The notes under the pieces are model-generated. The model was not told the origin of the DNA and made no database searches. It was given only the letters and a program-made list of their open reading frames with translations. From assembly GCF_023611925.1 (NCBI RefSeq), contig NZ_CP091456.1, positions 620,001 to 684,000 of the forward strand: a DNA stretch of 64,000 bases, written 5' to 3'. A program made the position numbers and the translations under genes. The DNA is from Avibacterium sp. 20-132. Its GTDB lineage: Bacteria > Pseudomonadota > Gammaproteobacteria > Enterobacterales > Pasteurellaceae. Positions 1-22,326 of the stretch are shown here, in pieces (within the stretch, counting starts at the first letter, position 1; each line of letters begins with the position of its first letter).

Positions 1-144
1 AGGTAGTAAGCTTTCACCAATGACAAAACGGGGAAAATATTGCTTCTCTAATACACATACCGATACCCCTTGTTTTGCTAATAATGCAGCCGCCACGGAA
101 CCTGAAGGGCCTGCACCAATAATCGCAACATCATATTGACTCAT
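1..144 (-). CDS. FAD-dependent oxidoreductase of the pigment cluster (partial, N-terminus)
   Basis: The first 48 residues are present; the rest lies beyond the left edge. The protein opens [16 protein letters not shown], a Rossmann dinucleotide-binding fold with the GxGxxG motif at about residues 10-15, and has a glutamate near residue 36 at the usual ribose-binding position, followed by a RFxIGESLLP stretch typical of tryptophan-halogenase-like and geranylgeranyl-reductase-like flavoproteins. Such a gene is a standard member of aryl-polyene clusters. It lies 27 bp downstream of the MMPL exporter in the same direction, so it is probably in the same operon. The substrate is not known. Confidence 0.8.
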
Positions 145-171
145 TTTTTGCTCCCTAAAAAGTCATTGTTA

Positions 172-2499
172 TTATTTACGATACATCATAAATGCTATAC
201 TCACCGCACAGATCACGCCAATACTCACGCTCAACCCAAACAATGCCACAGCGGGCGTATGGCTTAGGGTGAGCAAGCCGAAAGAAATTAGCGTCGTACT
301 TGCAGCAAGTACAATCGCAAATTGCTTATGGGCATTTAACCCAGAAACACTTTGCAAATATGCAACATAATCCACAGCAATAGCAGAAACCAACAACATT
401 CCAAACATTGCAAACAAGCTGATGGGTAAACCAAGCCAACCGAAAATCCCCAAGGTGGTAAGCACCGCAAAAACGGGGACAAATAACATTTTTCCACTCG
501 CTTTGGCACCGAAATAACGCAACAACAATAAACCTGCTAAGACAAAAGAAAGTAATTTTAGCCACACGGCTTGATTACGAGTTTGCTGGAAAGCTTGGTT
601 TAAGTGGCTACGCTTGTCTTGCCAGAAAATATCGTGATGATTGGCAAGTTGTGATAAGGCTTGGTGGTCGCCTTTATTAACAGGGATAATCGCGGCTTTT
701 TGTCCAGCTATCTGCCCTAAATACAAACTTTGCCACCCCTGTCCTAATGGCGTATTCAATGCCGCTTGCAAAGAAAGTGCTGGCTGATGAACTAATCCTT
801 TCAGTTGTTGTTGCACAATTTCAGCAGGAATACCCATTGCACTGAGTGGTGCATAATCCTGTGATGATAAGTGTTGCAATTGTTGTGCGAAAATACGTTG
901 TTGTTTTTCACTCATTAGCCATTGGCTTAAAGATTGATAACTTTCTAGCTGCTGTTGCTGCTTGGCTTGTTCTAATTGACGATCAAGTGCGGTGATTTTT
1001 TCGAGTAATTTTTCGTCATTTTCCGCTAAAACTAAAAAATATTGCCCACTTAATTGCATTCTTGTTAATTCACCAATTTTTTGTGCTTGGCTAACTAAAT
1101 TCGGTGATAATGCCACCCACTGACGAATATCATCTTGCCACTTAGATTGGACAATTCCTCCCGCAACAAAGAGGGCGAATATGCCTATCAAGGCTTTTCG
1201 ATAAACCAAAAACATTTGAAAAAAGCGCCGCACTTGATAAAACGCATATAACAACCTTGTTGGGCGTTTATTCTGATAATGGCGAAAAAAATCGGGTAAC
1301 AAAAGTTGCGTAAACAGCACCGCTGCCAGTAACGCTGCCGCTGAAAATAAGGCGGTTTGCTGTAATATAGGCAATGAAGTAAAACCAAGCAACGCATAAC
1401 CTAGCAACGTGACCAATAAACTCACACTAAAGGTGAGGTGTAGTTTTTGCATTGCTCGCTTTGCTTGCCAACGGTGAGAAAGCAATGAGCCAGAAAGCCA
1501 ATGCAATGGAAAGTCAATCAATACGCCAATTAAACTTGTGCCAATGACGAGGGTTAAAATATGCACTTGCCCAAACCAAGCAAGGGTTGCGACCACGCCC
1601 ACTAACACACCTGCCACAATAGGTAAAAATAACCATAACACTTGTAGCGAGCGAAATACCACCAGCAACAGCGTTAAGGTTAATCCCACCCCAAAGCCAC
1701 TCATTAATTGGCTTTCTCGCTCTGCACTTTGCTTGGCTTGCAAGGCAAATAGGCTTGCGCCTGTGATATTCATTTCTGCCCCTTGTGAGTGCGCAAGTTG
1801 CTGATTTTGTTCAATCAGTTGTAGCAATGCTAAAGGGGGAGTAAGCCAGTTTTGAGGGGTTAATTCCCCTTGTAATAATATCCAGCTTTTTCCCTGCCCA
1901 TTCACGCTAAGCACACCACTTTCTGATTGCCATTGTACATTACTCTGTGGCTGTGCTTGTGCAAGCGTAAATCGTCCAAAACCGAGCCAATCTTGATCCA
2001 ACGGCAATATACTTTGTGCTGTAAAAGGATTGCTCATTTGCTGCGCATATTGCTGGAAATATTGATGGGGTTGCTGAATTAATTGAGTGCGAATATGGGC
2101 GGGTAAAGTGGCAAAAGCGAGGGTTTTCACTGCTTGGCGAAGTGTATTAAGATCAGGCTGGAACTCACTGTTCACCTGACGAAATAAACCACTCTGACGC
2201 CAACGTTGAGCAATTTCCCGTGAAAGTTGAATCCCATTATCAAGCGAGCTTGCACCAATCAGTGCAATGATTTTCCCATTTAACCGCTGTTCTTGCTGTT
2301 TATCAACTTGCTGTTGTATGGTTTGCCATTGCTGATCTTCTGGCAATAATGCTTGTAAATCAGTTTGTAGCCAATTACCACGCAAAATAAACATCACCAG
2401 TGTAATTGTGCAAAACACCAAGCTCATTACATACGCAATACGCATTGCCATAGAAAAAAGTGCGGTGGAAAATTTTGATGTTTTGACTGGCTGCGACAT
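172..2499 (-). CDS. MMPL/RND-superfamily exporter of the aryl-polyene cluster
   Basis: A 775-residue inner-membrane protein with the MMPL layout: one N-terminal membrane helix (about residues 15-40), a large periplasmic loop, a block of five or six helices (about 265-410), a further helix at about 430-450, a second periplasmic loop, and a last helix block (about 645-770). This family moves lipids or lipid-linked products. In aryl-polyene clusters the equivalent protein is thought to work with the LolA-like protein encoded just upstream to take the polyene lipid towards the outer membrane. It follows the LolA-like gene by 18 bp. Transport of the polyene is an inference from context. Confidence 0.85.
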   Translation of the reverse strand: MSQPVKTSKFSTALFSMAMRIAYVMSLVFCTITLVMFILRGNWLQTDLQALLPEDQQWQTIQQQVDKQQEQRLNGKIIALIGASSLDNGIQLSREIAQRWRQSGLFRQVNSEFQPDLNTLRQAVKTLAFATLPAHIRTQLIQQPHQYFQQYAQQMSNPFTAQSILPLDQDWLGFGRFTLAQAQPQSNVQWQSESGVLSVNGQGKSWILLQGELTPQNWLTPPLALLQLIEQNQQLAHSQGAEMNITGASLFALQAKQSAERESQLMSGFGVGLTLTLLLVVFRSLQVLWLFLPIVAGVLVGVVATLAWFGQVHILTLVIGTSLIGVLIDFPLHWLSGSLLSHRWQAKRAMQKLHLTFSVSLLVTLLGYALLGFTSLPILQQTALFSAAALLAAVLFTQLLLPDFFRHYQNKRPTRLLYAFYQVRRFFQMFLVYRKALIGIFALFVAGGIVQSKWQDDIRQWVALSPNLVSQAQKIGELTRMQLSGQYFLVLAENDEKLLEKITALDRQLEQAKQQQQLESYQSLSQWLMSEKQQRIFAQQLQHLSSQDYAPLSAMGIPAEIVQQQLKGLVHQPALSLQAALNTPLGQGWQSLYLGQIAGQKAAIIPVNKGDHQALSQLANHHDIFWQDKRSHLNQAFQQTRNQAVWLKLLSFVLAGLLLLRYFGAKASGKMLFVPVFAVLTTLGIFGWLGLPISLFAMFGMLLVSAIAVDYVAYLQSVSGLNAHKQFAIVLAASTTLISFGLLTLSHTPAVALFGLSVSIGVICAVSIAFMMYRK

Positions 2500-2517
2500 T
2501 TTTAGGTACTCATTTTT

Positions 2518-3102
2518 CTATTCTAGTGCTTGTTTCACCGCGGATGATAATGGCTGATTAAGCTGAATATGCTGAAAGTAAATTTTTGTGCTATCACCTT
2601 GTACTTCATTCAGTTGCATTGCCGTTACGCTCTGATTTCCCTGTACAATAATTGAAATAAAGATCTGTTTCATTAAGAGCGAATTTGGCGTAAGTTGCAA
2701 TGTCCATTGTTTGGCATTACCACTTAATGCAAAATCAAAATGGCTTTTTAGCCCCGACAAATCCCCCGATAACAAGCCTAAAAACAGACGAATTTGTTGC
2801 GATTGTGCCATATTTCCGTTAGCAACCCAACCTTGCCCATTCCATTGTGCAATACCCTGTGGGGTAATCCGTAATTCTGTGTGAAAAGGCTGTGTCATTT
2901 GCCACAGCAAGCCTTTTTCTGCTACTAATGTAAAGTTTCCTTTCGTTTCAATAGGTTGCGGCAATGCTTTAAGAAAACGCTGCTGTACAAAATCTCCTTG
3001 TACGGTATGACTTTGCTGAAGTTGAGCGATAAGATCTTGCTCAGAAAACGCCCAAAGAGGTAAACTGACTATCCATAATAATAACGCAAAATATTTTTTC
3101 AT
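2518..3102 (-). CDS. LolA-like outer-membrane lipoprotein carrier protein (aryl-polyene cluster)
   Basis: A 194-residue protein with a clear signal peptide (MKKYFALLLWIVSLPLWAFS) and a LolA/LolB-type half-barrel sequence. The stretch around residues 30-45 (TVQGDFVQQRFL) and the later LLWQMTQPFHTEL stretch match the lipid-binding N-terminal part of LolA-like proteins. It is not the housekeeping LolA, because it is embedded in the pigment operon between the thioesterase and the exporter. The likely role is to carry the hydrophobic pigment lipid through the periplasm. This corresponds to the LolA-like gene of the E. coli aryl-polyene cluster. Confidence 0.85.
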   Translation of the reverse strand: MKKYFALLLWIVSLPLWAFSEQDLIAQLQQSHTVQGDFVQQRFLKALPQPIETKGNFTLVAEKGLLWQMTQPFHTELRITPQGIAQWNGQGWVANGNMAQSQQIRLFLGLLSGDLSGLKSHFDFALSGNAKQWTLQLTPNSLLMKQIFISIIVQGNQSVTAMQLNEVQGDSTKIYFQHIQLNQPLSSAVKQALE

Positions 3103-3116
3103 CTTTCCTATTCCAA

Positions 3117-3563
3117 TTAAGCGAGAGGTTGAAAGCCTTTATATGCCTCAAACGCCTTTCGCCAATTTTCCGTTGCTTCTAATTGCATCTCGCCCGTTTT
3201 AGCGTCCACCACCACTTGTGTCGTACTGGCTACGGTGAGTTTTTTGCCTGTTTGTAAATCGCTAATTACATAATCGATGCGTAGGCAAGTATCGTATTCC
3301 AATACCGAAAGGGTAACACGAATTTTTTGGCGAAAAAGTGCCGGACGAACGTATTTCACATTCAGTTGCACAATGGGCCAACCATAGCCGTCAGCACGAA
3401 TATGATCGTAAGTGTAACCAATCTCTTCTAACAATGCACAGCGTGCCATTTCAAAATATTTGATGTAATGCCCGTGCCACATAATATGTGCGGAATCCAC
3501 ATCAAAAAATGGGATCTCGTAATCAGATTGATGTTGGCAATAAATATGTTTTTTTGTTTTCAT
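3117..3563 (-). CDS. Acyl-CoA/ACP thioesterase, 4HBT hot-dog fold
   Basis: A 148-residue single-domain thioesterase. The FFDVDSAHIMWHGHYIKYFE segment (about residues 19-38) is the signature of 4-hydroxybenzoyl-CoA-type thioesterases, with Asp21 or Asp23 as the probable catalytic acid. The start overlaps the end of the upstream acyltransferase by 4 bp (ATGA-type), so translation is probably coupled. In aryl-polyene clusters the equivalent enzyme is thought to release or edit acyl chains on the ACPs. Specificity cannot be read from the sequence. Confidence 0.85.
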   Translation of the reverse strand: MKTKKHIYCQHQSDYEIPFFDVDSAHIMWHGHYIKYFEMARCALLEEIGYTYDHIRADGYGWPIVQLNVKYVRPALFRQKIRVTLSVLEYDTCLRIDYVISDLQTGKKLTVASTTQVVVDAKTGEMQLEATENWRKAFEAYKGFQPLA

Positions 3564-4492
3564 TTTTGTTCGTCATTCCAAAAATCGTAAAAATTGAACC
3601 ATTGCAATGGCTGTTCTCGGCACGCTTGCGCCAAGACATCAGCATATTGTTGCATTGCCTGCTGAATGTGTTGCTGACGGGCAATACCTCGTCCTGAAAT
3701 AGCTGAGCTGAATCGGCGAAGTTTTAATTGATAACGCCCTTGCGACTTCACACAAAACACCGTATTCAGTGGTGCTTTGAGCAATGCCGAAAGCAACCAA
3801 GCCCCCTGCGGAAAATCGGCTGACTTACCAAGAAAATTGACTTTTTCGGTTTTATCACCACGCACCGGAATCCGATCAGCGGCAATGGCAATCCATTCAC
3901 CTCGCTCTAACCGTTGGTGCAATTCAAACATTTTTTGTGCATCTAAATCCATTACCTGAATAACGGGAAGGGCTTTAGCGCCGGCTTTTTCTAAAGCTTG
4001 ATTGAATGCCTCAGCGTGATGACTATGCACTAATACATTCAGCACAAAATTAGGGTGATGTCCACTATCTACTAACGCGCGACAAATTTCAATATTACCA
4101 AAATGGGAACACAATAAAATTTGCCCGCGGTTTTGATGATCAATATCGTGATAAAGATTGTCCGCATCATCAATGTGTAAATCACGATAATGCATTTTAT
4201 TTTGCCACACCGCAAAGCGATCGGTAATCGCGACACCAAAGGTTAAAAACTGGCGAAAAACCGCCCAACGAGGTAACCTCGTGTCAGGAAAAGTTTGGCA
4301 CAAACGTTGCTGATATTCCGCAATATATTGGCGAGCTTTCTTTGATGTAACAAAAAAATAGCTCACCACGACAAAGGTAGCAATGCGGATCGCCCACAAA
4401 GGCAGATATGCCACAATCAAGCGTGTTAAGTTGAGAAAGAAACGCGTTCCACGCTCCTGCTGTTTTGCCCAATGTTTATCTGGTTGGCTCAT
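3560..4492 (-). CDS. LpxL/HtrB-like lysophospholipid acyltransferase (aryl-polyene cluster)
   Basis: About 310 residues from the chosen ATG, whose first bases overlap the stop of the glycosyltransferase gene as ATGA. A longer in-frame start exists at 4564 but would overlap that gene by 76 bp. One membrane helix lies at about residues 22-47. The HX4E catalytic motif (His130 to Glu135, SHFGNIE) marks the lipid A biosynthesis acyltransferase family. In the E. coli aryl-polyene cluster, as I recall it, a similar domain is fused to a glycosyltransferase; here the two are separate, coupled genes. It probably transfers the polyene acyl chain to a lipid or sugar acceptor. Confidence 0.8.
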   Translation of the reverse strand: MSQPDKHWAKQQERGTRFFLNLTRLIVAYLPLWAIRIATFVVVSYFFVTSKKARQYIAEYQQRLCQTFPDTRLPRWAVFRQFLTFGVAITDRFAVWQNKMHYRDLHIDDADNLYHDIDHQNRGQILLCSHFGNIEICRALVDSGHHPNFVLNVLVHSHHAEAFNQALEKAGAKALPVIQVMDLDAQKMFELHQRLERGEWIAIAADRIPVRGDKTEKVNFLGKSADFPQGAWLLSALLKAPLNTVFCVKSQGRYQLKLRRFSSAISGRGIARQQHIQQAMQQYADVLAQACREQPLQWFNFYDFWNDEQK

Positions 4493-5214
4493 AACGGCTT
4501 GCCTTGTATCATTCGCCATACCATCTGCCAAAAAAGTTTGGTGTGCATTTTGCTGATTTTCCAATTATCCGCAAAAGCCCGAAAATGAGATGTGCCATTC
4601 TTATCATAACGAACGGGGGTATCCACCCATACCATTGGGATTTGATACCAGTGCGCTTTGACAATAATTTCAATATCGAAATCCATACGATCGCCAATTT
4701 TTTCGTGCTTCAATAAATTGCTCATTGCTTCCACAGGATAGAGCCGAAAACCACACATTCCATCTAAAATATCGCGTGAATGGGTGTGGATAGCATTCCA
4801 AAAATCAGTAATTTTCCTACCATATAAACGAGCCTTAGGTGCATCCTCACCATAGATTGGACGCCCACAAATAAGTGCGGTGGGATTTTCAGCACTTTTT
4901 TGCAAAAAGATTGCCACATCAGAAAGCTGATGCTGTCCGTCTGCATCGACTTGTACGGCATAGGCAAAACCCTGTTCCCACGCCAATTGAAATCCCACTT
5001 TCATTGCCGCCCCTTTTCCCCCATTTTGTGGGCAAAAATGGACTTGAATACCCTCTTGCTGAGCAAGCGTATGCAGTACGGTTTTATGAGAATCGGTTGA
5101 GCCATCGTCAATAATCAACACGGGCAAATCAAGTTGGCGTAGCTGATTTGCAACAGCGCTAACCGTGGTTGAATGATTGTAATGAGGGATAAGCACAATT
5201 ACCTGTTTATTCAT
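4489..5214 (-). CDS. Family 2 glycosyltransferase (aryl-polyene cluster)
   Basis: A 241-residue GT-A fold enzyme resembling dolichyl-phosphate mannose synthase. Visible motifs are IPHYNH near residues 9-14, the DDGS motif at 36-39 and DADGQH at 90-95, which binds the nucleotide sugar and metal. No membrane anchor is obvious. It is followed directly by the LpxL-like acyltransferase (ATGA overlap) and overlaps the upstream AMP-ligase gene by 8 bp. The likely role is glycosylation of the polyene or its lipid carrier. The sugar and the acceptor are unknown. Confidence 0.82.
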   Translation of the reverse strand: MNKQVIVLIPHYNHSTTVSAVANQLRQLDLPVLIIDDGSTDSHKTVLHTLAQQEGIQVHFCPQNGGKGAAMKVGFQLAWEQGFAYAVQVDADGQHQLSDVAIFLQKSAENPTALICGRPIYGEDAPKARLYGRKITDFWNAIHTHSRDILDGMCGFRLYPVEAMSNLLKHEKIGDRMDFDIEIIVKAHWYQIPMVWVDTPVRYDKNGTSHFRAFADNWKISKMHTKLFWQMVWRMIQGKPL

Positions 5215-6532
5215 TAGCGAATTCCTCTTGCTGGCTAAGAAAAACTTGCTCGAAATCAGCGTTTAAAATTTTTGATTGACTATTGCGTGGCAATTTGTCG
5301 ATAAAACGCCAAAAACGGGGTAAGCCTGCCGCTTCTTGATTTTGGCTCAGGTGTTGGCGCAGTGAATGAATCACCGCGTTACGCCCTTGAGTGCGGTAAA
5401 CTTTCAATCCTTCTTCCGTTAACGCGACCCAAGCCGCAGGACGAGCCTGATTTGGGTGCTTTGCCACAAAGCAATCAATGACCCAAGAATGCTGCTGCAA
5501 GGCTTGTTCTATATTGACCAGAGAAATACGTTTGTCCCCCAGTTTTACAATGCGGTCCGCGCGTCCTAACAGTAAAAAGCGCTCGCCGTGCATTTGTACC
5601 ATATCTGCCATAATTTCTGGTTCATCAAGCCAAGGTGAATTAACCCAAAGCGTTTCATTTTCTGTTAATCCCACCTCTGTTACCACTGTCGGTGTCCATA
5701 ACGTCTCTTGTTCTCGAAACGCGATTGCACCAGTTTCAGTACTACCGTAACATTCGATCATTCGGCAACCTAGCATATCGTGGATACGTTGTGCGGTCTC
5801 TGAAGGCAAAGGAGAACCTGCTGAAATGACAGCACGAATACCGCAACGAGCCAGTTTGGAATCTTTTAAATTAAGGTGAGTAAGCAATGCTGGGCTACTC
5901 ACCCACAATACATTCTCTGCTTGTAAACTTTCGCTCATCAAATATTCGGGATAATGGTATTGCAAACGAGCGATAGACCAACCAAGATAGAGCGGTAAGA
6001 AAATACGGTAGGATAAACCATAATGATGTTGCGCGGAGACACTTGATACCACATAAAGTGGCCTATCCGCTGAAAACTTGATAGTGTCAGCAATAGCTTG
6101 TGCTTCCTGCCACATTTTTTTTGCTGTTTTGATCAAAACTTTTGGTTCGCCACTACTGCCTGAGGTTTTAAGCCAAATTTCGCTTTGACAATCAGGATCA
6201 ATTAACGGTTGCGCGAGGGTTTCTGCTTCTACCTGTTGTTCTAAACCGAAGGTCGCAACACGCTCATTATCCATCAGCATTGCATTTTCTTGTGCAAGCC
6301 ATTGTTGGTTTTCTGCTAATAAATTAGGTGGCAATAACACGCGCACTTTTGCCTGAAAACACGCCAACAACACGCACGCCATCTGTGCGGCATCATCAAG
6401 CCATAAGCCTAAGCTATGCACCTGTTGCTGTTGTAATTGCTGACTAATTTGCCAAGCTCGTAAGGTAAACTCTTGCTTTGACCAAGGCGGATTTAAGGTA
6501 ATATCCTTGATTGCTGAAAAATTAATTTGCAT
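5207..6532 (-). CDS. AMP-dependent acyl ligase, ApeH-like (stand-alone paralogue)
   Basis: A 441-residue member of the adenylate-forming (AMP-binding) family. The P-loop-like motif is at 122-131 (KTSGSSGEPK), the YGSTETG motif is near residue 263, and the late lysine motif is PRNSQSK near the C-terminus. It should activate an aryl or acyl acid for loading onto an ACP. It is clearly paralogous to the 553-residue ligase encoded at 7090-8751, including the shared EIWLKTSGS and DKLPRNSQSKI stretches, but it ends straight after the ligase domain and lacks the hot-dog extension. It overlaps the membrane-protein gene upstream by 11 bp and the glycosyltransferase downstream by 8 bp. Confidence 0.85.
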   Translation of the reverse strand: MQINFSAIKDITLNPPWSKQEFTLRAWQISQQLQQQQVHSLGLWLDDAAQMACVLLACFQAKVRVLLPPNLLAENQQWLAQENAMLMDNERVATFGLEQQVEAETLAQPLIDPDCQSEIWLKTSGSSGEPKVLIKTAKKMWQEAQAIADTIKFSADRPLYVVSSVSAQHHYGLSYRIFLPLYLGWSIARLQYHYPEYLMSESLQAENVLWVSSPALLTHLNLKDSKLARCGIRAVISAGSPLPSETAQRIHDMLGCRMIECYGSTETGAIAFREQETLWTPTVVTEVGLTENETLWVNSPWLDEPEIMADMVQMHGERFLLLGRADRIVKLGDKRISLVNIEQALQQHSWVIDCFVAKHPNQARPAAWVALTEEGLKVYRTQGRNAVIHSLRQHLSQNQEAAGLPRFWRFIDKLPRNSQSKILNADFEQVFLSQQEEFANE

Positions 6533-7085
6533 GATATTTTTTTACTCGTTGTCGAATGATCCATTCAATGCCCATAATCAAGCCAATGAACACATAGGAA
6601 ATCACCCCTGAATATAATGCCCAATAATCATAATATTGTCCCAATATGAGTGCAGTCGTCACCACAATATTAATAATAAAAACAATGCACCACACTTGGG
6701 TTACGGTTCGGGTGTAACGCACACCTTTATCGGTTAAATTTGGCTCTTGTAAGCGCGCTAAACGTTCTACAAAAGTCTGCGATTGCCATAAACTGCTTGC
6801 AAACAATAGCAACATTAATCCATTAATAATCACTGGATACCAAAACATTCCCACTAAAGCACGCGTGCCAGCAATCACTGCTAAAATTAACGCTAAGCAA
6901 AAGGAAAAATAACGCTGCGTTGATGGGGGTTGTTGCCATCCTTTCACCGCCCATAAGAGTGCCATTACCCACGGTAGATAATATAAAATGGGGCTATCTG
7001 CCCCTTGCCACCAAAAAAAAATGGGAAAAGCCACCGCACTTATTGCAAGGAATAAGGTGATAAGAACGGAAGTGAAAGCTTTCAT
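6522..7085 (-). CDS. COG4648-like membrane protein of the aryl-polyene cluster
   Basis: A 187-residue integral membrane protein with about five or six hydrophobic helices and a basic C-terminus (about residues 175-187). It resembles the COG4648 family regularly found in aryl-polyene clusters. Its function is not established. It lies between the two AMP-ligase paralogues, overlapping one by 11 bp and separated from the other by 4 bp, so all three are almost certainly cotranscribed. A role in membrane assembly of the synthase or in passing on the product would fit, but this is inference. Confidence 0.75.
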   Translation of the reverse strand: MKAFTSVLITLFLAISAVAFPIFFWWQGADSPILYYLPWVMALLWAVKGWQQPPSTQRYFSFCLALILAVIAGTRALVGMFWYPVIINGLMLLLFASSLWQSQTFVERLARLQEPNLTDKGVRYTRTVTQVWCIVFIINIVVTTALILGQYYDYWALYSGVISYVFIGLIMGIEWIIRQRVKKYHAN

Positions 7086-7089
7086 TATA

Positions 7090-9025: not shown

Positions 9026-9030
9026 CGTTA

Positions 9031-9288: not shown

Positions 9289-9301
9289 TTTATTTATCCT
9301 T

Positions 9302-10791: not shown

Positions 10792-10797
10792 TGATTA

Positions 10798-11777: not shown

Positions 11778-11788
11778 TTCATTTCATT

Positions 11789-11826: not shown

Positions 11827-11914
11827 GATATTTTATCTGGCTTGACAAGCACATTATCAAATTTATAATTTTGCGCCGAATTTTATCGGTGTACGCTTTG
11901 TAGTACTTAACTTT

Positions 11915-14508: not shown

Positions 14509-15510
14509 ATGAAAGAAAACAGTATTATAATCTATACGACCGAAGACGGTTTATCTCAATTCACCTTACGCGAATTAGGTTCTCAACTTTGGTTAAATCA
14601 GTTGGAAATTGCAGAGCTTTATCAAACTACAAAGCAGAATATCAGTAAACATATTAAAGCTATTTTTGATGAAAGTGAATTTGATGAAAATTCAACCGTC
14701 AACTTTCAGTTGACAGTTCAAAATGAAGGCAGGAGAGAGATTAAACGCCAAATCGCTTACTATCCTTTACCTTTAATTATTGCCATTGGTTATCGTGTCC
14801 GGTCAACGCGTGGTACTCAATTTCGCCAATGGGCAACTCGCACGTTGGGCGAATATATAGAAAAAGGGTTTGTGTTAGATGAAGTACGATTAAAAAATCC
14901 ACCTATTGGTGCTAATCAAGCCAATGACTATTTTGATCTGCTCTTAGAAAAAATCCGAGATATTCGAGCAAGTGAACGCCGAATGTATTTACGAGTGCGT
15001 GAAATTTTCACTTTAGCGGCAGATTATCAACCCTCTTTTAAAGAAACAACGCAATTTTTCCAAAAAATTCAAAACAAACTTCATTTTGCTTGTACTAATA
15101 AAACAGCAGCAGAAATCATTTTTCAACGAGCAAATGCAGAATTACCTAATATGGGATTGACAAATTTTAGTGGTATCGGTGTAGTAAAAAAAGATATTAC
15201 AGTAGCTAAAAATTATCTTAATGAACAAGAAATTACAGCATTAAATCGGATTGTTTCAATGTGGCTAGATTTTGCAGAAGATCAAGCAAACCGAAAAAAA
15301 CAGTTTTTCTTAAAAGATTGGGAAGAACAATTAGATCGTTTTCTTGAATTTAACGATAGAAATGTATTGAGAGATCAAGGTTCAATCAGTAAAAAACAAG
15401 CAGAGGAAAAAGCACTTCTTGAATATGACAAATATGCACAAAAACGCTGTTTAGAAAAAGAAAAATTAGGTGAAATTTATATCAAAGAACTTTTAAATAT
15501 TAAAAAATGA
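14509..15510 (+). CDS. RhuM-family protein inserted in the pigment operon
   Basis: A 333-residue protein of the RhuM family, named after a gene of Salmonella pathogenicity island 3. The N-terminal region (about residues 25-60, LNQLEIAELYQTTKQNISKH) is a helix-turn-helix, followed by the conserved YYPLPLIIAIGYRVRS segment near 83-98, and a helical C-terminus with Lys/Glu-rich repeats. Biochemical function is unknown. Family members are often found in genomic islands and near defence genes. The gene is AT-rich compared with its neighbours and I see no USS in it. Its stop codon overlaps the BtrH start as ATGA, so it is translationally integrated in the operon. Confidence 0.85.
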   Translation: MKENSIIIYTTEDGLSQFTLRELGSQLWLNQLEIAELYQTTKQNISKHIKAIFDESEFDENSTVNFQLTVQNEGRREIKRQIAYYPLPLIIAIGYRVRSTRGTQFRQWATRTLGEYIEKGFVLDEVRLKNPPIGANQANDYFDLLLEKIRDIRASERRMYLRVREIFTLAADYQPSFKETTQFFQKIQNKLHFACTNKTAAEIIFQRANAELPNMGLTNFSGIGVVKKDITVAKNYLNEQEITALNRIVSMWLDFAEDQANRKKQFFLKDWEEQLDRFLEFNDRNVLRDQGSISKKQAEEKALLEYDKYAQKRCLEKEKLGEIYIKELLNIKK

Positions 15511-16502
15511 ACAATAACTTTTCCCACCAACACACTGCCCATTGCGAAAGTGGCGTGATGTCCACCTTACTCAAATCGCAAGGGGTTAATTTCAATGAAG
15601 CGATGGTATTTGGCTTGGCATCGGCATTGACCTTTGTTTATATTCCACTCATCAAAATTAGCGGAATGCCGTTAATTTCTTATCGAATGCCACCGGGGGC
15701 AATGCTTAAAAAAGTGTCAAAAGTATTAAAAGGAAAACTTGCGTTAAAACGATTTCGTTCACCACAACAAGGGCAACAAGCCTTGGATAAGGCTTTAGCG
15801 CAAGGAAAACTGGTGGGACTGCAAACTTCAGTGTTTTGGCTGCCTTATTTTCCGCCCGAAATGCGTTTTCATTTTAATGCACATAATTTGTTAGTTTATG
15901 GCAAACAGGAGAACGAATATTTAATTAGCGATCCTGTCTTTGAGCAAGTACAGCGCTGTGCGGTACAAGATTTACAACGCGCACGTTTCGCAAAAGGCGC
16001 ATTAGCGGCAAAAGGGTTAATGTATTATTGGAAAACTTCGCCAAATTTGACCGCACTTGATTTACCCACCATATTGAGAAAAGCGATTCGCAAAAATGCC
16101 AAACAAATGCTCGCACCGTTTTGGTTTGTTGGCGTGCGCGGAATGTTTTCTCTTGCAAAACAAATCGAAAAATTTGCTCACAGTAAACAAAGTGAAAAAT
16201 ACAAAAAACTCTTCCTTGGTCACATCGTGCGAATGCAAGAAGAAATTGGCACAGGTGGCGCGGGCTTTCGCTATATTTATGCCTATTTCCTAGAGCAAGC
16301 GGCAGAAATCTGCCAAGAGCCAAACTTTAAACAAGCTTCACAACAAATGACAGAAATTGGTGATCAATGGCGACAATTTGCCAGCCTTTGCGTGAAGCAA
16401 TGCCGGCAGCCGAGTGTTGAAGGTTATCAAGAAATTGCCAAGTTTTTGAACGCTGTTGCCGAAAAAGAAGCCACGTTATGGCGTATGTTAAAAAATCAAT
16501 AG
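15507..16502 (+). CDS. BtrH N-terminal-domain protein of the pigment cluster
   Basis: A 331-residue protein with a butirosin-biosynthesis-H-like N-terminal domain: QHTAHCESGVMSTLLKS at about residues 8-24, with Cys13 as the probable nucleophile, and HFNAHNLLVYG at about 112-122 supplying a histidine. BtrH-type proteins are papain-like acyltransferases that move an acyl group from an ACP to an amine or another acceptor. Here it may transfer an ACP-bound chain to a lipid or resorcinol acceptor. The C-terminal half is helical. A USS lies inside the gene at about 16049. It is coupled to the rhuM-like gene by ATGA. Confidence 0.75.
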   Translation: MNNNFSHQHTAHCESGVMSTLLKSQGVNFNEAMVFGLASALTFVYIPLIKISGMPLISYRMPPGAMLKKVSKVLKGKLALKRFRSPQQGQQALDKALAQGKLVGLQTSVFWLPYFPPEMRFHFNAHNLLVYGKQENEYLISDPVFEQVQRCAVQDLQRARFAKGALAAKGLMYYWKTSPNLTALDLPTILRKAIRKNAKQMLAPFWFVGVRGMFSLAKQIEKFAHSKQSEKYKKLFLGHIVRMQEEIGTGGAGFRYIYAYFLEQAAEICQEPNFKQASQQMTEIGDQWRQFASLCVKQCRQPSVEGYQEIAKFLNAVAEKEATLWRMLKNQ

Positions 16503-16512
16503 CAGGAACAAG

Positions 16513-18378
16513 ATGCTAAATTGGATTGATATTGAAGAGATGCTTACCTCTGGTAATTTATATACTGAGCGAGAATGGCTGGAATATAAAGAGGCTAAAA
16601 ATGATATTCCCAAAACAATCTGGGAAACCTATTCAGCTTTTGCAAACCAATCTGGTGGTTTTATCATACTCGGTGTATCAGAAAAAGAGGGACTGCATAT
16701 CTCAGGTGTTACAAATGCTGAAAAAATCCAAGACCTTATTTTTACGCAATCTCGTAGTAAAGAAAAAGTAAGCACTGCTTTATTATCTAATGAGAATGTG
16801 CGTTGCTTTACGATTAAAGGTAAACAAGTCATCGTAATTTATGTACCAAAAGCAGAAGAAGCGGATCGCCCAATTCATTTGAATCAAGATCTTCGTCGTT
16901 CTTATATTCGTCTAAAAGCAGGCGATCATAAATTAAATGATGAACAATTACGTTCAATGATTGCAAATTCTACTAGTAAGAATCGTGACGGAAAAATTAT
17001 TCCTCATAGTAACTTAGATTATCTAAACATAAATACCTTAAATAAATATCGTAATTTACTTAAAGCACAAAAAGATTCTGAACCACTACTCTTACGATCT
17101 GATGAGGAGCTATTCGAACGCATTGGTGCAATAGCAATAGATCCTGAAACAGGGCAAAGCGGCGTTACTTTTGCCGGTTTACTGTTGTTTGGTAAAGGGC
17201 ATATTATCAAAAATTACCTTAAACACTTTTTCTTTGAATATTACGAAACCAGTGAGCAAAATAGCCGCTATGATTTACGCATTACGGATTTCGATATAGA
17301 AGAAGGAAATCTACTTGAATTCTATTGGAAGATTGCCCCTCTTTTGACCTCTTTAGGCAAAGATACCCATTTTAAACTTGATAACCTTACTCGAACTGAA
17401 GAAAATGAAATCACTAAATCATTACGCGAAGCCTTGGTCAATGCTATTGCTCATGCAGATTATTTTAATGACAGCCGACATTTAAAGATTGTAAAAACAC
17501 AAAATCAAATTAGTTTTGAAAATGCAGGAACTATGCTAGTTGATATTCAACACGCTATTGTGGGCAATCGTTCAGAATGTAGGAATGGCACAATTCATAA
17601 TATCTTACGTCGTGTGGGTTTATGTGAGCGCCAAGGACAGGGAGTGAAAGATATCTTTCAAAATTGGCAAAATTACTATTTCACCACCCCTAAATTAGAA
17701 AGCCAAATTGATTACACAAGATTAACCTTAACATTTCAAGATGGTGAAATTATAAAATGGGAAGAAACGTTAGCAGATCACTTTGGCGCTCGCTTTACAC
17801 AATTAAAGCAAAAAGTGAAAGACTGTTTGTTATATATTGCTATCAATGGACAGCAAGCAAATCATAAACAAATTGTTGAAGCCATTCCTCAATATACAGG
17901 ACGTGAAATTACCCTTGCTTTATCTCAGCTTAAAAATAAAGGGTTCTTGGTTGTTGAGGGTGTAAAACGTAATGAGTTAATTTATCGACTTGTTAATTTT
18001 AATGAAGTCAAAACTCAATCAAAATCTGATTACACGATGATTTCAACTAAGCAAGAAAATCTTGGATCCTTATTAAACAAGGCTTCAGAAGATATAAAAG
18101 TAGTACAGCCAAGCATAAATCATAAAGAAAGTGATAAAGAAAGTGATAAAGAAAGTGATAAAGAAAGTGATAAAGAAAGTGATAAAGTAAAACAATTACT
18201 CGCTGTACTAGGGAACGAATATCAAAGTGCAAAACAATTGATGGAAATACTTGGTATCTCCCACAGAGTGAATTTTGGCAAACGCTATTTAAACCCTGCA
18301 CTATATCTTGGTTTAATCGAAATGAAATACCCTGATAACCCTAAACATCGTAATCAAAAATACCGAAAAAGAAAGTAA
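16513..18378 (+). CDS. AlbA_2/Schlafen-type DNA-binding ATPase with a C-terminal ESDK repeat
   Basis: A 621-residue protein. The N-terminal domain (about residues 15-130) is an AlbA_2 (Schlafen AlbA) domain with EWLEYKEAKNDIPKTIWET and ANQSGGFIILGV. A GHKL-like ATPase region follows (about 290-390, with LREALVNAIAHADYF). A winged-helix region lies at about 440-500. Then comes a run of five ESDK units (about 539-558) before a final helix-turn-helix-like region. Such proteins are often called ATP-dependent helicases or regulators without proof, and occur in defence islands. It has no evident pigment role and sits 10 bp after the BtrH gene. Confidence 0.8.
   Translation: MLNWIDIEEMLTSGNLYTEREWLEYKEAKNDIPKTIWETYSAFANQSGGFIILGVSEKEGLHISGVTNAEKIQDLIFTQSRSKEKVSTALLSNENVRCFTIKGKQVIVIYVPKAEEADRPIHLNQDLRRSYIRLKAGDHKLNDEQLRSMIANSTSKNRDGKIIPHSNLDYLNINTLNKYRNLLKAQKDSEPLLLRSDEELFERIGAIAIDPETGQSGVTFAGLLLFGKGHIIKNYLKHFFFEYYETSEQNSRYDLRITDFDIEEGNLLEFYWKIAPLLTSLGKDTHFKLDNLTRTEENEITKSLREALVNAIAHADYFNDSRHLKIVKTQNQISFENAGTMLVDIQHAIVGNRSECRNGTIHNILRRVGLCERQGQGVKDIFQNWQNYYFTTPKLESQIDYTRLTLTFQDGEIIKWEETLADHFGARFTQLKQKVKDCLLYIAINGQQANHKQIVEAIPQYTGREITLALSQLKNKGFLVVEGVKRNELIYRLVNFNEVKTQSKSDYTMISTKQENLGSLLNKASEDIKVVQPSINHKESDKESDKESDKESDKESDKVKQLLAVLGNEYQSAKQLMEILGISHRVNFGKRYLNPALYLGLIEMKYPDNPKHRNQKYRKRK
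18126..18185 (+). repeat. Five tandem 12-bp repeats inside the AlbA_2 gene
   Basis: The unit GAAAGTGATAAA occurs five times without interruption. Each unit is four codons (Glu-Ser-Asp-Lys), so gain or loss of units keeps the frame and would change a charged linker length rather than switch the gene off. Confidence 0.95.
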
Positions 18379-18385
18379 GAAAAGT

Positions 18386-19108
18386 ATGATTGATATTGAT
18401 AAACTCAGCCATCAATACGCTGATGGCTCAAATTTCGCTTTAAATAACATAAATCTTCACATTACACACGGCTCAGCAATCGGTTTGCTTGGTCCTAACG
18501 GCGCTGGGAAGACAACACTGATGTCTTTACTTTGTGGGTTGCAAGCGGTGCAGCAAGGGCAGATTTATTTTGAGGGTGTGCCATTTCACAAATTGAGCAA
18601 ACAACAGCGCCATCAACTTTCTTTAGTGCCACAGGATTTTGCATTTTATCCTTTATTAACGGTATGGGAAAATTTAAAATTTTTCGCCGCACTTTATCAT
18701 ATCAATGATAAAAACTGGCTCACTGAATTATTAGAAAAAGTCGGGCTAACTTCTTATAAATCTAAATTAGCAAAACATTTATCAGGCGGATTAAAACGCC
18801 GCTTAAATTTTGCTATTGGTCTAATTAATCGTCCAAAAGTGATTTTTTTAGATGAAATCACCGTAGGTATTGATCCTCAATCCCGCCAATTTATTTTAAA
18901 TTCCGTAGCAGAATTAACTCAGCAAGGCATCACGGTAATTTATACTTCGCATTATCTGCAAGAAATTGAACAATTATGCGATCAATTAGTTTTACTCAAT
19001 GAAGGTAAACTCATTTATCAAGGAGAAATAAAGGGAATGCTTGCTGAAGGGCAAAGTCTTGAGCATTTTTATTTGGATTTTTTACAACAAGCGGGGAACA
19101 AATGCTAA
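18386..19108 (+). CDS. ABC transporter ATP-binding protein of the pigment cluster
   Basis: A 240-residue ABC ATPase of the drug/lipid export type. Walker A is GPNGAGKT at 36-43, the signature is LSGGLKRRL near 133, and Walker B is VIFLDEITVGID near 151, with Ile in place of the usual Pro after the catalytic Glu. It overlaps the permease gene by 7 bp. Together they should form an ABC-2 exporter, probably moving the resorcinol- or acyl-derived product across the inner membrane. Substrate assignment is inference from the cluster. Confidence 0.88.
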   Translation: MIDIDKLSHQYADGSNFALNNINLHITHGSAIGLLGPNGAGKTTLMSLLCGLQAVQQGQIYFEGVPFHKLSKQQRHQLSLVPQDFAFYPLLTVWENLKFFAALYHINDKNWLTELLEKVGLTSYKSKLAKHLSGGLKRRLNFAIGLINRPKVIFLDEITVGIDPQSRQFILNSVAELTQQGITVIYTSHYLQEIEQLCDQLVLLNEGKLIYQGEIKGMLAEGQSLEHFYLDFLQQAGNKC

Positions 19109-20346
19109 TTGCTGCAATGTTCAAAGAATTACGCCTATTAAGCCGCGATCTGCACGGTGTAGCAGTGTTATTTATTATGCCGATTTTATTTATGTTGATT
19201 ATGTCAGCCGCACTCAGCAGTGAAAATGAACTAGGTAATCGTGGCGAAATTTTGCTGCTTGGTACGCCAAATGATCCCCTAAATGATGGATTTTTTACCG
19301 CACTACAACAAGAGGAACTGCTCGTAAAACAAGGAAATATCGCTCAATTAGAGATATATCAACAAGATTTACTACAAGAAAAATTTGCGTTGATTGTAGT
19401 AAATCCCAATCAAGATAAAAATGTGCTAAAAGAAGAACAGCCTTTACAACTTTGGCTTAATCCCTGTGTGGATCGGGCGTGGTTGCTTGGCGTTAAAGGC
19501 ATCCTGCAAAAGCATTACAGCCAGCAACGACTTGAGCGTTATTCCAAAGATAATCACATTGTATTGAAACACAATCAACGCAATCCAGTAAAACGCATTC
19601 AGCAAGAAGTCAATCAAGCATTAGATAAAAAATTCGATGAAATTAATACTTATTTAGCACAAGAGCGCTGGCAGGAAATTTATCTTAATCGCCAAGGGAA
19701 AACGGTCAATCAGCCCAATGCCGTGCAACATAGCGTACCTGCGTGGTTAATTTTTGGGATGTTTTTTATTATGATCCCCCTTTCCAACGTAATGGCGATG
19801 GAGCGACAGACCAACACGCTCACACGTTTACGTTTAGCAAGAGCCTCAAGTCTGAGGCTGATTTTAGCAAAATTAGTGCCGTATTTTTTGATCAATCAAT
19901 GCCAATTTATTGGAATGATCGCCTTAGGCTATTGGGTGCTACCAATGCTTGCTATGCCTGCGTTTAGCTTAAATGGTGAATGGTGGTATTATGCGGTGCT
20001 GTCGGCTGCGGTAAGCCTTTCTGCGCTAGGCTATGGTTTATTAATTAGTGTGATTGCGCGCACAACTGAACAGGCTGTGGTGCTAGGAGGCGGTGGCATT
20101 ATCATTATGGCTGCCATTGGTGGCATTATGGTGCCAACTTATGTAATGCCTGATATGATGCAAGAAATCGCCCAATTTTCACCAATGGGTTGGGCATTAA
20201 CGGCATTTCAGCAACTATTATTAAATCAGGCTACGTTAATGCAAATTCAGCCTGAACTTTGGCTTTTAACGGGTTTTGGTGCTGTGATGCTCTTCATCGC
20301 CGTGCTGATTTACGCCCATCAACTCAAAACACAAGCGAGATTTTAA
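19102..20346 (+). CDS. ABC-2 type permease of the pigment cluster
   Basis: A 414-residue permease with the ABC-2 layout: one N-terminal helix (about residues 20-36), a long extracytoplasmic domain (about 40-210), then five helices (about 217-405), including the VVLGGGGIIIMAAIGGIMVP stretch. This is the YhhJ/YbhR type. It ends on the ATG of the ACP gene (TAATG overlap), so the exporter and the ACP are translated from a continuous message. Confidence 0.85.
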   Translation: MLIAAMFKELRLLSRDLHGVAVLFIMPILFMLIMSAALSSENELGNRGEILLLGTPNDPLNDGFFTALQQEELLVKQGNIAQLEIYQQDLLQEKFALIVVNPNQDKNVLKEEQPLQLWLNPCVDRAWLLGVKGILQKHYSQQRLERYSKDNHIVLKHNQRNPVKRIQQEVNQALDKKFDEINTYLAQERWQEIYLNRQGKTVNQPNAVQHSVPAWLIFGMFFIMIPLSNVMAMERQTNTLTRLRLARASSLRLILAKLVPYFLINQCQFIGMIALGYWVLPMLAMPAFSLNGEWWYYAVLSAAVSLSALGYGLLISVIARTTEQAVVLGGGGIIIMAAIGGIMVPTYVMPDMMQEIAQFSPMGWALTAFQQLLLNQATLMQIQPELWLLTGFGAVMLFIAVLIYAHQLKTQARF

Positions 20347-20630
20347 TGAGCTATATTTTTACTCTCAGCCAACCTGAACTAGAACAACAACTGAAAAACT
20401 TGATCGTGCAAGAAAGCGATAAAATGGACATCGATCCCAGCGCGATCAGCGATGATGAGCCATTATTTGGTGAACAAAGCCGTATCCAGTTAGATTCTCT
20501 AGATGCGCTACAAATTGCGGTGGCACTACAAGCTCACTTTAAAGTGAGGTTAAATGGCGACCGAATGGTGCGTAAACATATGATGAATATTCGTGATTTA
20601 GCCCAATTTATCCGTCACCAGCATTCTTAA
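20346..20630 (+). CDS. Acyl carrier protein, rightward pigment operon
   Basis: A 94-residue ACP. The start chosen is the ATG that overlaps the permease stop; a longer frame upstream is only a shadow of the permease. The phosphopantetheine serine is Ser51 in QLDSLDALQI. It resembles the first ACP of the leftward operon. It lies 2 bp before the ketosynthase gene, a typical ACP-KS-partner triplet, so it probably carries the chain used on the resorcinol arm. Confidence 0.9.
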   Translation: MSYIFTLSQPELEQQLKNLIVQESDKMDIDPSAISDDEPLFGEQSRIQLDSLDALQIAVALQAHFKVRLNGDRMVRKHMMNIRDLAQFIRHQHS

Positions 20631-20632
20631 CA

Positions 20633-21691
20633 ATGCCGAAAGTTTATCTCACCGCAGCGAGCCAACAAAATGCACAAACTGCTAAGCTTAATCCTTGGCA
20701 GCAATCTTCAATGCTTGGGCAAAACCAGCATTTGCCTTATTTTCGTGCTTTTGAGCAACCTTTGCTGAATTTCAATCAACTCTGCACTTATTTAGAACAG
20801 CATATTGACAAGGTATTAACGCAACGCGGTTGGCAAGCCGATACACTGCAAAATACCCCCATTCTTTTAGGCTCAACGGCGTATTTAATGAGTGATTGCG
20901 AATTTCGTTGGCATAATAATCAGCCTTTGCCGCAAGAATACAGCCTAGCGCTTATCGCAGAACGTTTAAAAACACGCTATCAAACGTCTGTTTTCAGCGT
21001 TGCGACCTCTTGCACTTCCTCTGCACAAGCAATCGGCTATGCTTATCAAATGATTGAGCAAGGGCAATGTGAGCGTGCTTTGGTGGTTGGTTTTGAAATG
21101 TTTAACCGCTTAACCTTTGAACATTTCAATGCAATGCACTTATTGGCAGACGATTTGCCCTATCAACCTTTTGAACAACATAACGGTATTATTTTAGGGG
21201 AAGGAATCGCTTGCGTGGCATTGGAAAATCAACCAAATCCAGAGAAAAAACTAGAAATTTCTGCCATCACTACGATTACGGATCACCATAATCTAACCAA
21301 TAGCTCCGCAGAGGCATTGACTCAACTGATTGAAAATTGTTTGCATAAAGCAGGATTACAATCTCATCAACTAGCTGGCATTAAAGTTCACGCTGTGGGC
21401 GGAAACAGCGATGAAATGGAAATCGCGTTTTTGCAACAACAGTTTCCGAGCATTCCTTGCTTATTAGCCAAACCGTACCTGGGACATAGTTTAGGCGCAA
21501 GTGGTGCAATGGAAACTGCGTGGCTTTGGCAACAATTACAGCAAGATAAAACAAATTACTTAACCATCACCCCACAAGGGGCAATAGAAAAGCAAACGCA
21601 ACCGCTTTCTACCGGCTATTATTTGAACTACTTTTTAGGCTTTGGTGGCAGTAATATTGCTTGGATTCTTCACTGGCAAGGAAAAGAGTAA
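20633..21691 (+). CDS. Beta-ketoacyl-ACP synthase, catalytically complete
   Basis: A 352-residue ketosynthase of the FabF/type II PKS kind. The active-site cysteine is Cys127 in ATSCTSSA, with His253 in VHAVGGNSDE, Lys280 and His285 in AKPYLGHSLGASGA. The HAVGGN motif differs from the common HGTGT, as in other aryl-polyene-type synthases. It is shorter than FabF (about 412 residues). Followed 5 bp later by a degenerate ketosynthase-like gene, it looks like the active half of a KS/chain-length-factor pair. Confidence 0.88.
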   Translation: MPKVYLTAASQQNAQTAKLNPWQQSSMLGQNQHLPYFRAFEQPLLNFNQLCTYLEQHIDKVLTQRGWQADTLQNTPILLGSTAYLMSDCEFRWHNNQPLPQEYSLALIAERLKTRYQTSVFSVATSCTSSAQAIGYAYQMIEQGQCERALVVGFEMFNRLTFEHFNAMHLLADDLPYQPFEQHNGIILGEGIACVALENQPNPEKKLEISAITTITDHHNLTNSSAEALTQLIENCLHKAGLQSHQLAGIKVHAVGGNSDEMEIAFLQQQFPSIPCLLAKPYLGHSLGASGAMETAWLWQQLQQDKTNYLTITPQGAIEKQTQPLSTGYYLNYFLGFGGSNIAWILHWQGKE

Positions 21692-21696
21692 GTAAA

Positions 21697-22326
21697 ATGA
21701 AATCAAATCGTTATTTAAAACAACAAAGCCAGTTTATTACACAAGGGCAAAGTGAGGCAGAACTCCGCCAGCAGCTCAAAGCCTTTGGTGTAGATGCACG
21801 TCGTTTAAGCAAATTTACCCAACTTTGTTTACTCGGGGCATTACCACTGAAGCCTTATATCACGCCAAATACCGCAATTTATTTGGCTTCGCCTTTTAAT
21901 TCACCAAGCAAATTTAACAAATTATTCCACCAGCTTATGGAACAAGACTTGCCTAGCCCACTGGATTTTATGGCAAATCTCAATAACGCGACGGTTTTTC
22001 AGCTTTCACAACATTTTCAAACAACGGGCAATAGCCTTTTCTTAATTACCTCGCAAGAGGATGTGGATCATCCATTACAGCTTGCACAATTAGCATTAAG
22101 AAGCGATTCCGTCGATCAGGTGTTAGTCGGTTGGGCGATTGAATCACCAACAATGGAATGGGAAGGAAGCTGTTGGTGGTTACTCAGTAATATCGCAGGG
22201 GAAAATGCCTTATCATCAAGTGCGGTGCAAAATTCGCCAAATTTTTCTACTTCACACCATTCTCTACCAGAAAATCATTATTTGCATTTTGCATTGAATG
22301 GGCAGAATTTCGATCTAGATACATAA
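21697..22326 (+). CDS. Degenerate ketosynthase-like protein, possible chain-length-factor partner
   Basis: A 209-residue protein from the ATG at 21697; an upstream TTG-start reading overlaps the ketosynthase and is less likely. The sequence follows a ketosynthase N-terminal half: RRLSKFTQLCLLGA near residues 30-43, TAIYLASPFNSPSKFN near 54-69, then a TTGNSLF segment near residue 109 where the active cysteine would be expected, and QVLVGWAIES near 140. No cysteine is present there. By analogy with KS/CLF pairs it would form a heterodimer with the preceding synthase. Family assignment is mine, from pattern only. It carries a USS near its 3' end. Confidence 0.6.
   Translation: MKSNRYLKQQSQFITQGQSEAELRQQLKAFGVDARRLSKFTQLCLLGALPLKPYITPNTAIYLASPFNSPSKFNKLFHQLMEQDLPSPLDFMANLNNATVFQLSQHFQTTGNSLFLITSQEDVDHPLQLAQLALRSDSVDQVLVGWAIESPTMEWEGSCWWLLSNIAGENALSSSAVQNSPNFSTSHHSLPENHYLHFALNGQNFDLDT

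Follow-up and report, generated by a model that had tools for sequence, protein, structure and literature searches.

A composite aryl polyene and dialkylresorcinol gene cluster in Avibacterium, with defence-type genes in the slots flanking darH

We analyzed a 64,000-nucleotide stretch (G000:C1:620001-684000, hereafter the window) from the genome of a bird-associated Avibacterium, a member of the Pasteurellaceae with a genome of one contig and 2,585,160 bases. The list of open reading frames (ORFs) for the whole window places two divergent operons within positions 1-22326, which meet at ~11.2-11.9 kb. The left operon carries aryl polyene (APE) genes, while the right operon carries dialkylresorcinol (DAR) genes. 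Judging from sequence, the two probably form a composite APE and DAR cluster, for which an ester joining the polyene to the resorcinol is the best reading of the product and in which the slots flanking the acyltransferase gene darH hold defence-type genes. We give this reading a probability of roughly 0.78. The cluster would be a pigment locus of known type, here with an Escherichia coli-type polyene half and in the Pasteurellaceae. Literature searches that combined this family with aryl polyenes or flexirubin returned no description of such a hybrid locus and matched only a Flavobacterium taxonomy study. The main text of PMC3949708 contains none of five Pasteurellaceae name stems, its supplementary genome list (Table S7) lying outside that check, and excerpts of PMC13076348 record yellow pigment for Pasteurella felis and not for Avibacterium.

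The left operon is encoded on the reverse strand and extends beyond the window. Because an overlapping stretch (L005, G000:C1:605000-621500) carries apeR, apeQ, apeP, apeO, an apeN-position gene and a gene for a halogenase-like FAD protein, all with open frames and on the same strand, the APE genes start 5.4 kb to the left of position 1. An earlier note on this DNA had made its reading depend upon APE core genes upstream of position 1, including further ketosynthases, a ketoreductase and a dehydratase; apeR, apeO, apeQ and apeP all lie there, so the reading survives. The APE core is complete. Pfam matches were obtained for ApeP (PF22817), ApeI (PF22818), the ketoreductase (adh_short) and ApeR (ketoacyl-synt), and the best PDB matches of ApeO and ApeC are chains A and B of 6qsp, respectively, these two being the ketosynthase (KS) and chain length factor (CLF) pair. 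A motif search found the active Cys motif kept in ApeO, ApeR and the KS of the dar operon, and found all four of the motifs sought in both AMP-ligases. The apeN-position protein, which occupies the place of DUF3261 in E. coli, gave no NCBIfam match and fits by position.

Within the window and listed from its left edge, the operon begins with the 5' end of the FAD-dependent halogenase-like gene (1..144; whole gene at L005:13907-15145), which matches Trp_halogenase and FAD_binding_3 in Pfam and includes a WLWLIP sequence, presumably the WxWxIP halogenase motif. Next are apeM (172..2499), an RND/MMPL-type exporter gene; apeL (2518..3102; LolA-like, PF03548); apeK (3117..3563; 4HBT-type thioesterase, PF13279); a gene for an LpxL-like (lipid A-type) acyltransferase with an HFGN motif (3560..4564; PF03279); an apeJ-type glycosyltransferase family 2 gene (4489..5214; PF00535); the second AMP-ligase gene (5207..6532; PF00501); and the gene of an apeG-position membrane protein (6522..7085), which has no Pfam or NCBIfam match and is of the COG4648 type by position alone. 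These are followed by an apeH-apeI fusion of an AMP-ligase with the ApeI dehydratase (7090..8751; PF00501, and PF22818 over cut-off), acyl carrier protein (ACP) genes at the apeF and apeE positions (8744..9025 and 9031..9288; both PF00550), apeD (9302..10123; acyltransferase with an NHPSLLD motif, PF01553), apeC (10039..10791; CLF-like ketosynthase without the active-site Cys motif, PF13723 or Ketoacyl-synt_2) and an apeA-position lipoprotein gene (10798..11211), assigned from its position and a weak Sbal_3080 lipoprotein match. The ApeB methyltransferase is missing at its usual place, the apeA-position gene adjoining apeC directly; the rest of the genome was not searched for it. The paralogous AMP-ligases are 45% identical, and the ApeI domain sits on the first-transcribed one in the window and apparently on the second in another locus (L155:2405-5908). 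ORFs and Pfam matches bear out the set that the earlier note had named for this operon, namely a CLF-like ketosynthase, ACPs, an AMP-ligase, a dehydratase domain, a thioesterase and LolA. Its MMPL exporter is present as an ORF in the fitting position, except that ApeM has no Pfam match and only weak matches to RND-family NCBIfam models (HAE3/HpnN).

The right operon is encoded on the forward strand. A small lipoprotein-like gene, lipoX (11352..11777), has no family match and accompanies the cluster in relatives, where its location varies, always in or beside the cluster. The DAR aromatase gene darA (11915..12841) matched no Pfam or NCBIfam model and was recognized from 34-37% identity to Flavobacteriaceae darA genes lying beside darB, together with gene order. 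darB (12841..14007) encodes the DAR cyclase/ketosynthase, which scores over the cut-off of NF005293 (StlD/DarB subfamily), aligns with StlD (PDB 5gk0) over nearly its full length (E 1.8e-123) and keeps the Cys, His and Asn of that enzyme. It is followed by darG (13994..14404; NF053536 over cut-off), for which a relative (L065:7980-8930) has a version without a stop that runs into ~190 more residues, possibly a natural fusion with the following ORF. The darG-darH slot is occupied by a RhuM family gene (14509..15510; PF13310, PADLOC PDC-S05), whose last bases overlap the start of darH (15507..16502). DarH is a BtrH-related acyltransferase with a BtrH_N domain, and it matches the equivalog model NF053550 with 499.6 bits against a cut-off of 300. 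BtrH is known for acyl-transfer chemistry, and Cys13, His126 and Asp142 of DarH (window protein numbering) are invariant in 21 of 21 aligned sequences, L067 having been left out for its in-frame stop. The darH-ABC slot holds a SLFN_AlbA_2/HATPase_c_4/Fic-like_C gene (16513..18378; PF04326, PF13749, PF21247; hereafter AlbA_2), after which come the ABC exporter ATPase (18386..19108; PF00005), the ABC-2 exporter permease (19102..20346; PF12698), the dar ACP (20346..20630; PF00550), the dar KS with its active-site Cys motif TSCTS (20633..21691; PF00109/PF02801) and a last dar gene (21661..22326) that matched no family and takes the place of darK in Azoarcus. The earlier note had read this whole operon as biosynthetic. 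Its DarA-like and DarB proteins, ACP and KS pair and ABC exporter all hold, whereas it overlooked RhuM and AlbA_2 as two non-biosynthetic genes, and its BtrH-like acyltransferase is the recognized DAR gene darH, not to be confused with the LpxL-like gene in the left operon.

The closest known relative of this arrangement is the arcuflavin system of Azoarcus sp. BH72, an APE-DAR hybrid in a proteobacterium for which the ester was predicted from mass spectrometric fragments (PMC3949708). Azoarcus likewise has both polyene and DAR genes, in the order darA-darB-hypothetical-BtrH-ABC ATPase-ABC permease-ACP-KS-hypothetical, to which the window adds two genes (PMC3949708). Unlike the adjacent ape and dar operons of Avibacterium, Azoarcus has two unlinked polyene loci, with dar ~19 genes from one of them; it also has a XanB2 chorismatase and a methyltransferase (PMC3949708), whereas the likely source of the starter in Avibacterium is UbiC. 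The Avibacterium polyene operon is instead E. coli-like and its inserted genes are others, although the Azoarcus dar operon does have a Phd/PilT pair of its own between the two ABC genes (PMC3949708). Bacteroidota flexirubin loci similarly combine polyene and DAR sets in one genome, along with LolA, a glycosyltransferase, an acyltransferase and an exporter (PMC3992019), and Flavobacteriaceae share the order darA-darB-darG-darH-ABC. They differ in that their darA, darB, darG and darH are only 34-46% identical to those of Avibacterium, in that Avibacterium has no tyrosine ammonia-lyase and a DarG under the flexirubin DarG cut-off, and in having constant ORFs between darB and darG and none between darG, darH and ABC. 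Judged by family and position, the polyene half largely keeps the E. coli CFT073 order of apeA, apeC-F, apeH-I and apeJ-R, but it has no ApeB at its place, fuses ApeH to ApeI and puts the fusion before ApeG, and adds the second AMP-ligase, the separate LpxL-like acyltransferase, the halogenase-like gene and the linked DAR operon (PMC8253772).

Of 140 Pasteurellaceae genomes from 43 genera, 35 encode DarH, and we examined their dar operons for insertions. Gaps were measured at the dar loci of these 35; n varies, as some genes were missing or outside the stretch, and L061-L068, L084 and L085 were left out as copies of counted genomes. Gaps of >300 bp occur between darG and darH in 24 of 33 loci and between darH and the ABC ATPase gene in 19 of 34, with at least one of the two in 29/35. 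The corresponding counts are 5/32 for ABC-ABC, 4/31 for darA-darB, 2/30 for ABC-ACP and 4/12 for apeP-apeQ, and zero for darB-darG (n=32), ACP-KS (n=30), KS-darK (n=21) and each of apeN-O, apeO-P and apeQ-R (n=12 each). Almost every ORF of ≥90 aa in the two darH-flanking slots (51/52) is co-directional with the operon, and in eight loci with an empty second slot the stop of darH and the start of the ABC gene share 4 bases. Among other Proteobacteria, 24 loci score above the DarH cut-off (L104-L106 and L115-L117, below it, were left out), and 23 of these have darG (L114 does not). All 23 have an empty darG-darH gap of -28 to 68 bases, and the contrast of 0/23 with 24/33 gives a Fisher P of 9e-9 with shared descent ignored. 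The second slot allows hardly any comparison in these Proteobacteria, since at 20 of the 24 loci no ABC ATPase gene was found in the ~1.5 kb covered after darH, and the gap is 2-97 bases in the other four. darG also adjoins darH in 15 Bacteroidota loci (L070-L083 and L086), which have one or two recurring ORFs between darB and darG; one locus from a Bacteroidota metagenome-assembled genome (L071) has a 215-aa ORF between darH and ABC. L065 was left out of the locus comparison, as it shares a contig with L046. In the window itself, RhuM and AlbA_2 flank darH and are so tightly packed that they are probably co-transcribed with the pigment genes. The gene families and their packing suggest that the pigment operon also serves as an insertion slot for defence-type genes.

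Insertions were also seen elsewhere in these loci. An AlbA_2-like gene lies between apeL and apeK (L033:665-2593), such that cargo enters the APE operon as well, and cargo genes lie between apeP and apeQ in L035, L041, L045 and L057. The ABC-ABC gap holds insertions of 1.6-2.1 kb in L032, L053, L056 and L058, which include antisense genes for an OmpA-like barrel and DUF2846-type proteins as well as a gene for a helix-turn-helix protein; terminator-like hairpins at some of their borders should interrupt the operon, and 9 of the 13 ORFs in this gap are antisense to it.

Clustering of the 88 ORFs of ≥90 aa from the Pasteurellaceae loci gave 42 groups, some of which are not cargo, and from these we picked 30 proteins each for Pfam and PADLOC scans. 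The window RhuM matches PDC-S05 over residues 3-332 of 333 (E 6.9e-145). Other defence homologues among the scanned proteins are HEC-01A with HEC-01B, SduA (Shedu), Drt8 and YhcG (PDC-S02), besides a ThsB-type TIR protein with a PDC-M50A neighbour, a PtuA-like ATPase and AlbA_2 proteins, one of them with a match to a pAgo model. The scans also returned a Y1 transposase, Phd and PIN genes, DUF1643, ankyrin repeats and, narrowly below its cut-off, HEPN_Swt1, while nine proteins matched nothing in Pfam or PADLOC. At E≤1e-20, PADLOC matched 10 of the 30 hand-picked cargo proteins and 0 of 38 mechanically chosen other ORFs of the window (Fisher 1e-4). The filling varies even within Avibacterium: AlbA_2 accompanies RhuM in the window and other first-slot content in L040 and L042, while L039 and L059 have RhuM remnants with another gene pair, and the second slot of L059 holds a member of the Shedu cluster. 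Our counts take no account of shared ancestry, but for one slot to hold such unrelated genes, they must have been gained or replaced more than once.

Several cargo genes deserve separate mention. A two-gene cargo of ~300 and 150 aa occupies the darG-darH slot at L036:11623-12958, L038:11644-12961, L039:12432-13758 and in L059, where the first gene is in two pieces; its representatives have no Pfam or PADLOC match, making it a candidate new defence pair. A Y1 (IS200-like) transposase gene is found in the darH-ABC slot at L027:14960-15487 and in seven more loci, several of which have it flanked by GGGCGGGTCCTGTGCCCGCCC-type palindromes, and it looks like a REP/RAYT element in the second slot. 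In L041, an open gene for a 525-aa Drt8-like reverse transcriptase (L041:14999-16576) lies beside a broken darH, and the stretch fetched showed no darA, darB or dar KS; our reading of this locus is that the cargo has outlasted the pigment genes.

The nearest relatives of RhuM and AlbA_2 examined outside dar loci reside in type I restriction-like operons, where hsd-like genes were recognized by motifs and by how the proteins begin, not by models. Of the RhuM matches with E≤1e-100, just one outside dar loci shares 60% identity or more with the window protein; it is in G014 (74%), between hsdS-like and hsdR-like genes. AlbA_2 relatives are located between hsdR- and hsdM-like genes in G002 (62%), between hsdS- and hsdM-like genes in G021 (53%) and, in G093 (56% over 507 residues), close to the end of a contig and immediately following a methylase-like gene. 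Neighbours were read for the best three of seven non-Avibacterium AlbA_2 matches, as well as for G014 and for six of 20 further RhuM loci that were fetched, and three of these six are in hsdM/hsdS-like loci. One of the three, ~22 kb to the right of the window (L129, G000:C1:703500-710500), is a type I restriction-like locus with the second RhuM of this genome and a gene that by eye looks like AlbA_2. With the nearest non-dar homologues examined in hsd-like loci, the dar slots appear to draw upon a pool of genes that are often housed in type I restriction operons. In the operons of that type that were inspected, PDC-S05 and others belong to the same families and show the same tight, co-directional packing between partner genes, whereas the host operon in Avibacterium is a pigment operon.

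The dar-slot RhuM is nonetheless an old resident. Its ten copies are 79-99% identical to each other and at most 52% identical to 20 sampled others, and their distances track those of the dar genes (Mantel r 0.69, p 0.0014). A recent sideways spread was first suggested by protein identity, which is higher for RhuM than for darH in 38 of 45 pairs. It was rejected, since the distances follow dar and since divergence at fourfold sites, with values near saturation, is lower for RhuM than for the concatenated dar genes in only 14 of the 45 pairs. A separate lineage that follows the dar genes and bears no trace of a recent transfer is also what would be expected if RhuM and AlbA_2 were regulators or accessory parts of pigment making, rather than defence genes. 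We regard this as unlikely, as an intact RhuM is lacking in 25 of the 35 dar loci, other species fill the same slots with Shedu, Drt8, TIR and HEC-01 homologues, the closest non-dar RhuM is in a restriction-like operon, and the Drt8-like gene of L041 is open where darH is broken.

With regard to the product, the proposed ester draws its support from the co-occurrence of the two gene sets and from the characterized hybrid pigment arcuflavin, which makes it the best reading. ApeP is encoded in 51 of the 140 genomes (25 genera) and DarH in 35 (15 genera), and all 35 DarH-positive genomes also have ApeP. With shared descent ignored, the hypergeometric P is 6e-21 by genome and 2e-5 by genus, where all 15 DarH-positive genera fall within the 25 of 43 that are ApeP-positive. 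In 30 of the 35, apeP and darH share a contig and are no more than 30 kb apart, whereas G024, G083 and G126 have them on different contigs. For comparison, a published list of 39 polyene genomes includes 16 with DAR genes, nine of which have them within or adjacent to the polyene locus (PMC3949708). Given that every DarH-positive genome is ApeP-positive while some ApeP-positive genomes lack DarH, DAR would be an add-on to APE, as a joined product predicts.

Several observations weigh against this interpretation. The dar and ape genes are far apart in G079 and G138, and 16 of the 51 ApeP-positive genomes lack DarH, so APE may also be made alone in the Pasteurellaceae. DarB falls under the stricter NF053539 cut-off (458.6 vs 550) and DarG under that of the flexirubin DarG model NF053545 (127.2 vs 170 bits). 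As for the defence-type cargo, RhuM-family genes are common in the Pasteurellaceae anyway (103/140 genomes), three of the six further RhuM loci are not restriction-like, 20 of the 30 scanned cargo proteins, which were not a random choice, have no PADLOC match at E≤1e-20, and the window AlbA_2 matches PADLOC weakly (best 2.8e-7) and is not among the ten. The second AMP-ligase could play a joining part instead of DarH, the finished polyene could go to an APE lipid anchor via apeD and the LpxL-like gene rather than to DAR, and the APE-DAR product is a prediction from the genes.

Some of these points would also suit two separate products, with the aryl polyene ending up as an E. coli-type lipid of the outer membrane and the dialkylresorcinol exported in free form. 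Like E. coli, for which the gene table of the APE cluster shows no DAR genes (PMC8253772), the window has genes of the lipid-anchoring type (apeD, the LpxL-like gene and the glycosyltransferase); the dar genes come with an ABC exporter of their own; and there are the ApeP-positive genomes without DarH. Still, we think two products quite improbable, because DarH without ApeP was found in none of the 35 genomes, because the dar gene set is that of Azoarcus, in which the hybrid was found and free DAR was undetectable (PMC3949708), and because a free DAR leaves DarH with no obvious use. That the cluster is a decaying relic making nothing, as a darH broken in 2/35 genomes (G031 and G017) and the operon insertions in most relatives might hint, is very hard to credit when the core frames of the window are open with catalytic motifs present and most proteins of the cluster share 85-99% identity with their counterparts in other Avibacterium species.

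For the joined ester, the starter unit is probably E. coli-like. The earlier note had suggested a flexirubin-like pigment and a search for an ammonia-lyase beyond position 1. The composite cluster stands, while the tyrosine/ammonia-lyase start is absent and arcuflavin is the closer relative: no aromatic ammonia-lyase was found in the entire genome by a search that gave matches in 5 of 14 control genomes, nor in any of the 35 DarH-positive genomes, and only G091 and G092 of the 140 were positive, both without DarH and ApeP. A tyrosine-derived starter was therefore rejected. A search for a XanB2-type chorismatase with PF21168 found no match, although the control genomes were silent too. UbiC is present in the genome, and the E. 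coli APE pathway is predicted to begin with UbiC-made 4-hydroxybenzoate (PMC8253772). The lack of an ammonia-lyase together with the presence of UbiC thus points to an E. coli-like head rather than a tyrosine-derived one.

From the genes, motifs and co-occurrence that were observed, we infer each of the following chemical steps, the ester included. UbiC would provide 4-hydroxybenzoate, which ApeH would load onto an ACP, and the aryl polyene would be built by ApeR and ApeO-ApeC with ApeQ and ApeP/ApeI. Separately from the polyene, the dar ACP and KS would supply acyl chains for DarB to condense and DarA to aromatize into the dialkylresorcinol. DarH would then esterify a phenolic OH of the resorcinol with the carrier-bound polyene, and outward transport of the ester would fall to the LolA, RND and ABC exporters. 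The halogenase-like protein may halogenate the product. As there is no ApeB in the usual place, the head may be unmethylated and its phenol may stay free; a color test in alkali is a recognized sign of a free phenol. DarH is our favored candidate for the ester-forming enzyme, and this is a choice that is not settled, because the joining enzyme suggested for flexirubin is the ligase-like FlxW, not a BtrH protein (PMC3992019). The second AMP-ligase of the window could likewise reactivate free polyene for ester formation.

The varied cargo raises the further idea that the dar operon of the Pasteurellaceae is a true defence hotspot within a biosynthetic operon. On this view, anti-phage genes of the kind otherwise housed in type I restriction operons would insert preferentially into the gaps on either side of darH, would be transcribed from the promoter of the pigment genes and could persist after those genes had decayed, and cargo ORFs without a name would represent defence systems not yet described. 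We rate this idea an even bet. By titles and abstract starts, none of the top-ranked matches of our literature searches describes defence genes lodged within APE or DAR operons. The closest parallels that came up are the Phd/PilT pair of Azoarcus and the phage-defence genes close to lanthipeptide biosynthetic clusters (PMC12715929), the latter lying within a 40 kb span rather than between the genes of one operon in recurring slots as in Avibacterium. For the family, our results extend flexirubin/arcuflavin-type hybrid pigment loci to 15 of the 43 Pasteurellaceae genera sampled, and they predict an E. coli-type polyene-resorcinol ester that would be started from 4-hydroxybenzoate and joined by DarH. 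If the hotspot is real, these operons would become a new search ground for defence systems, and such genes would not serve restriction enzymes only.

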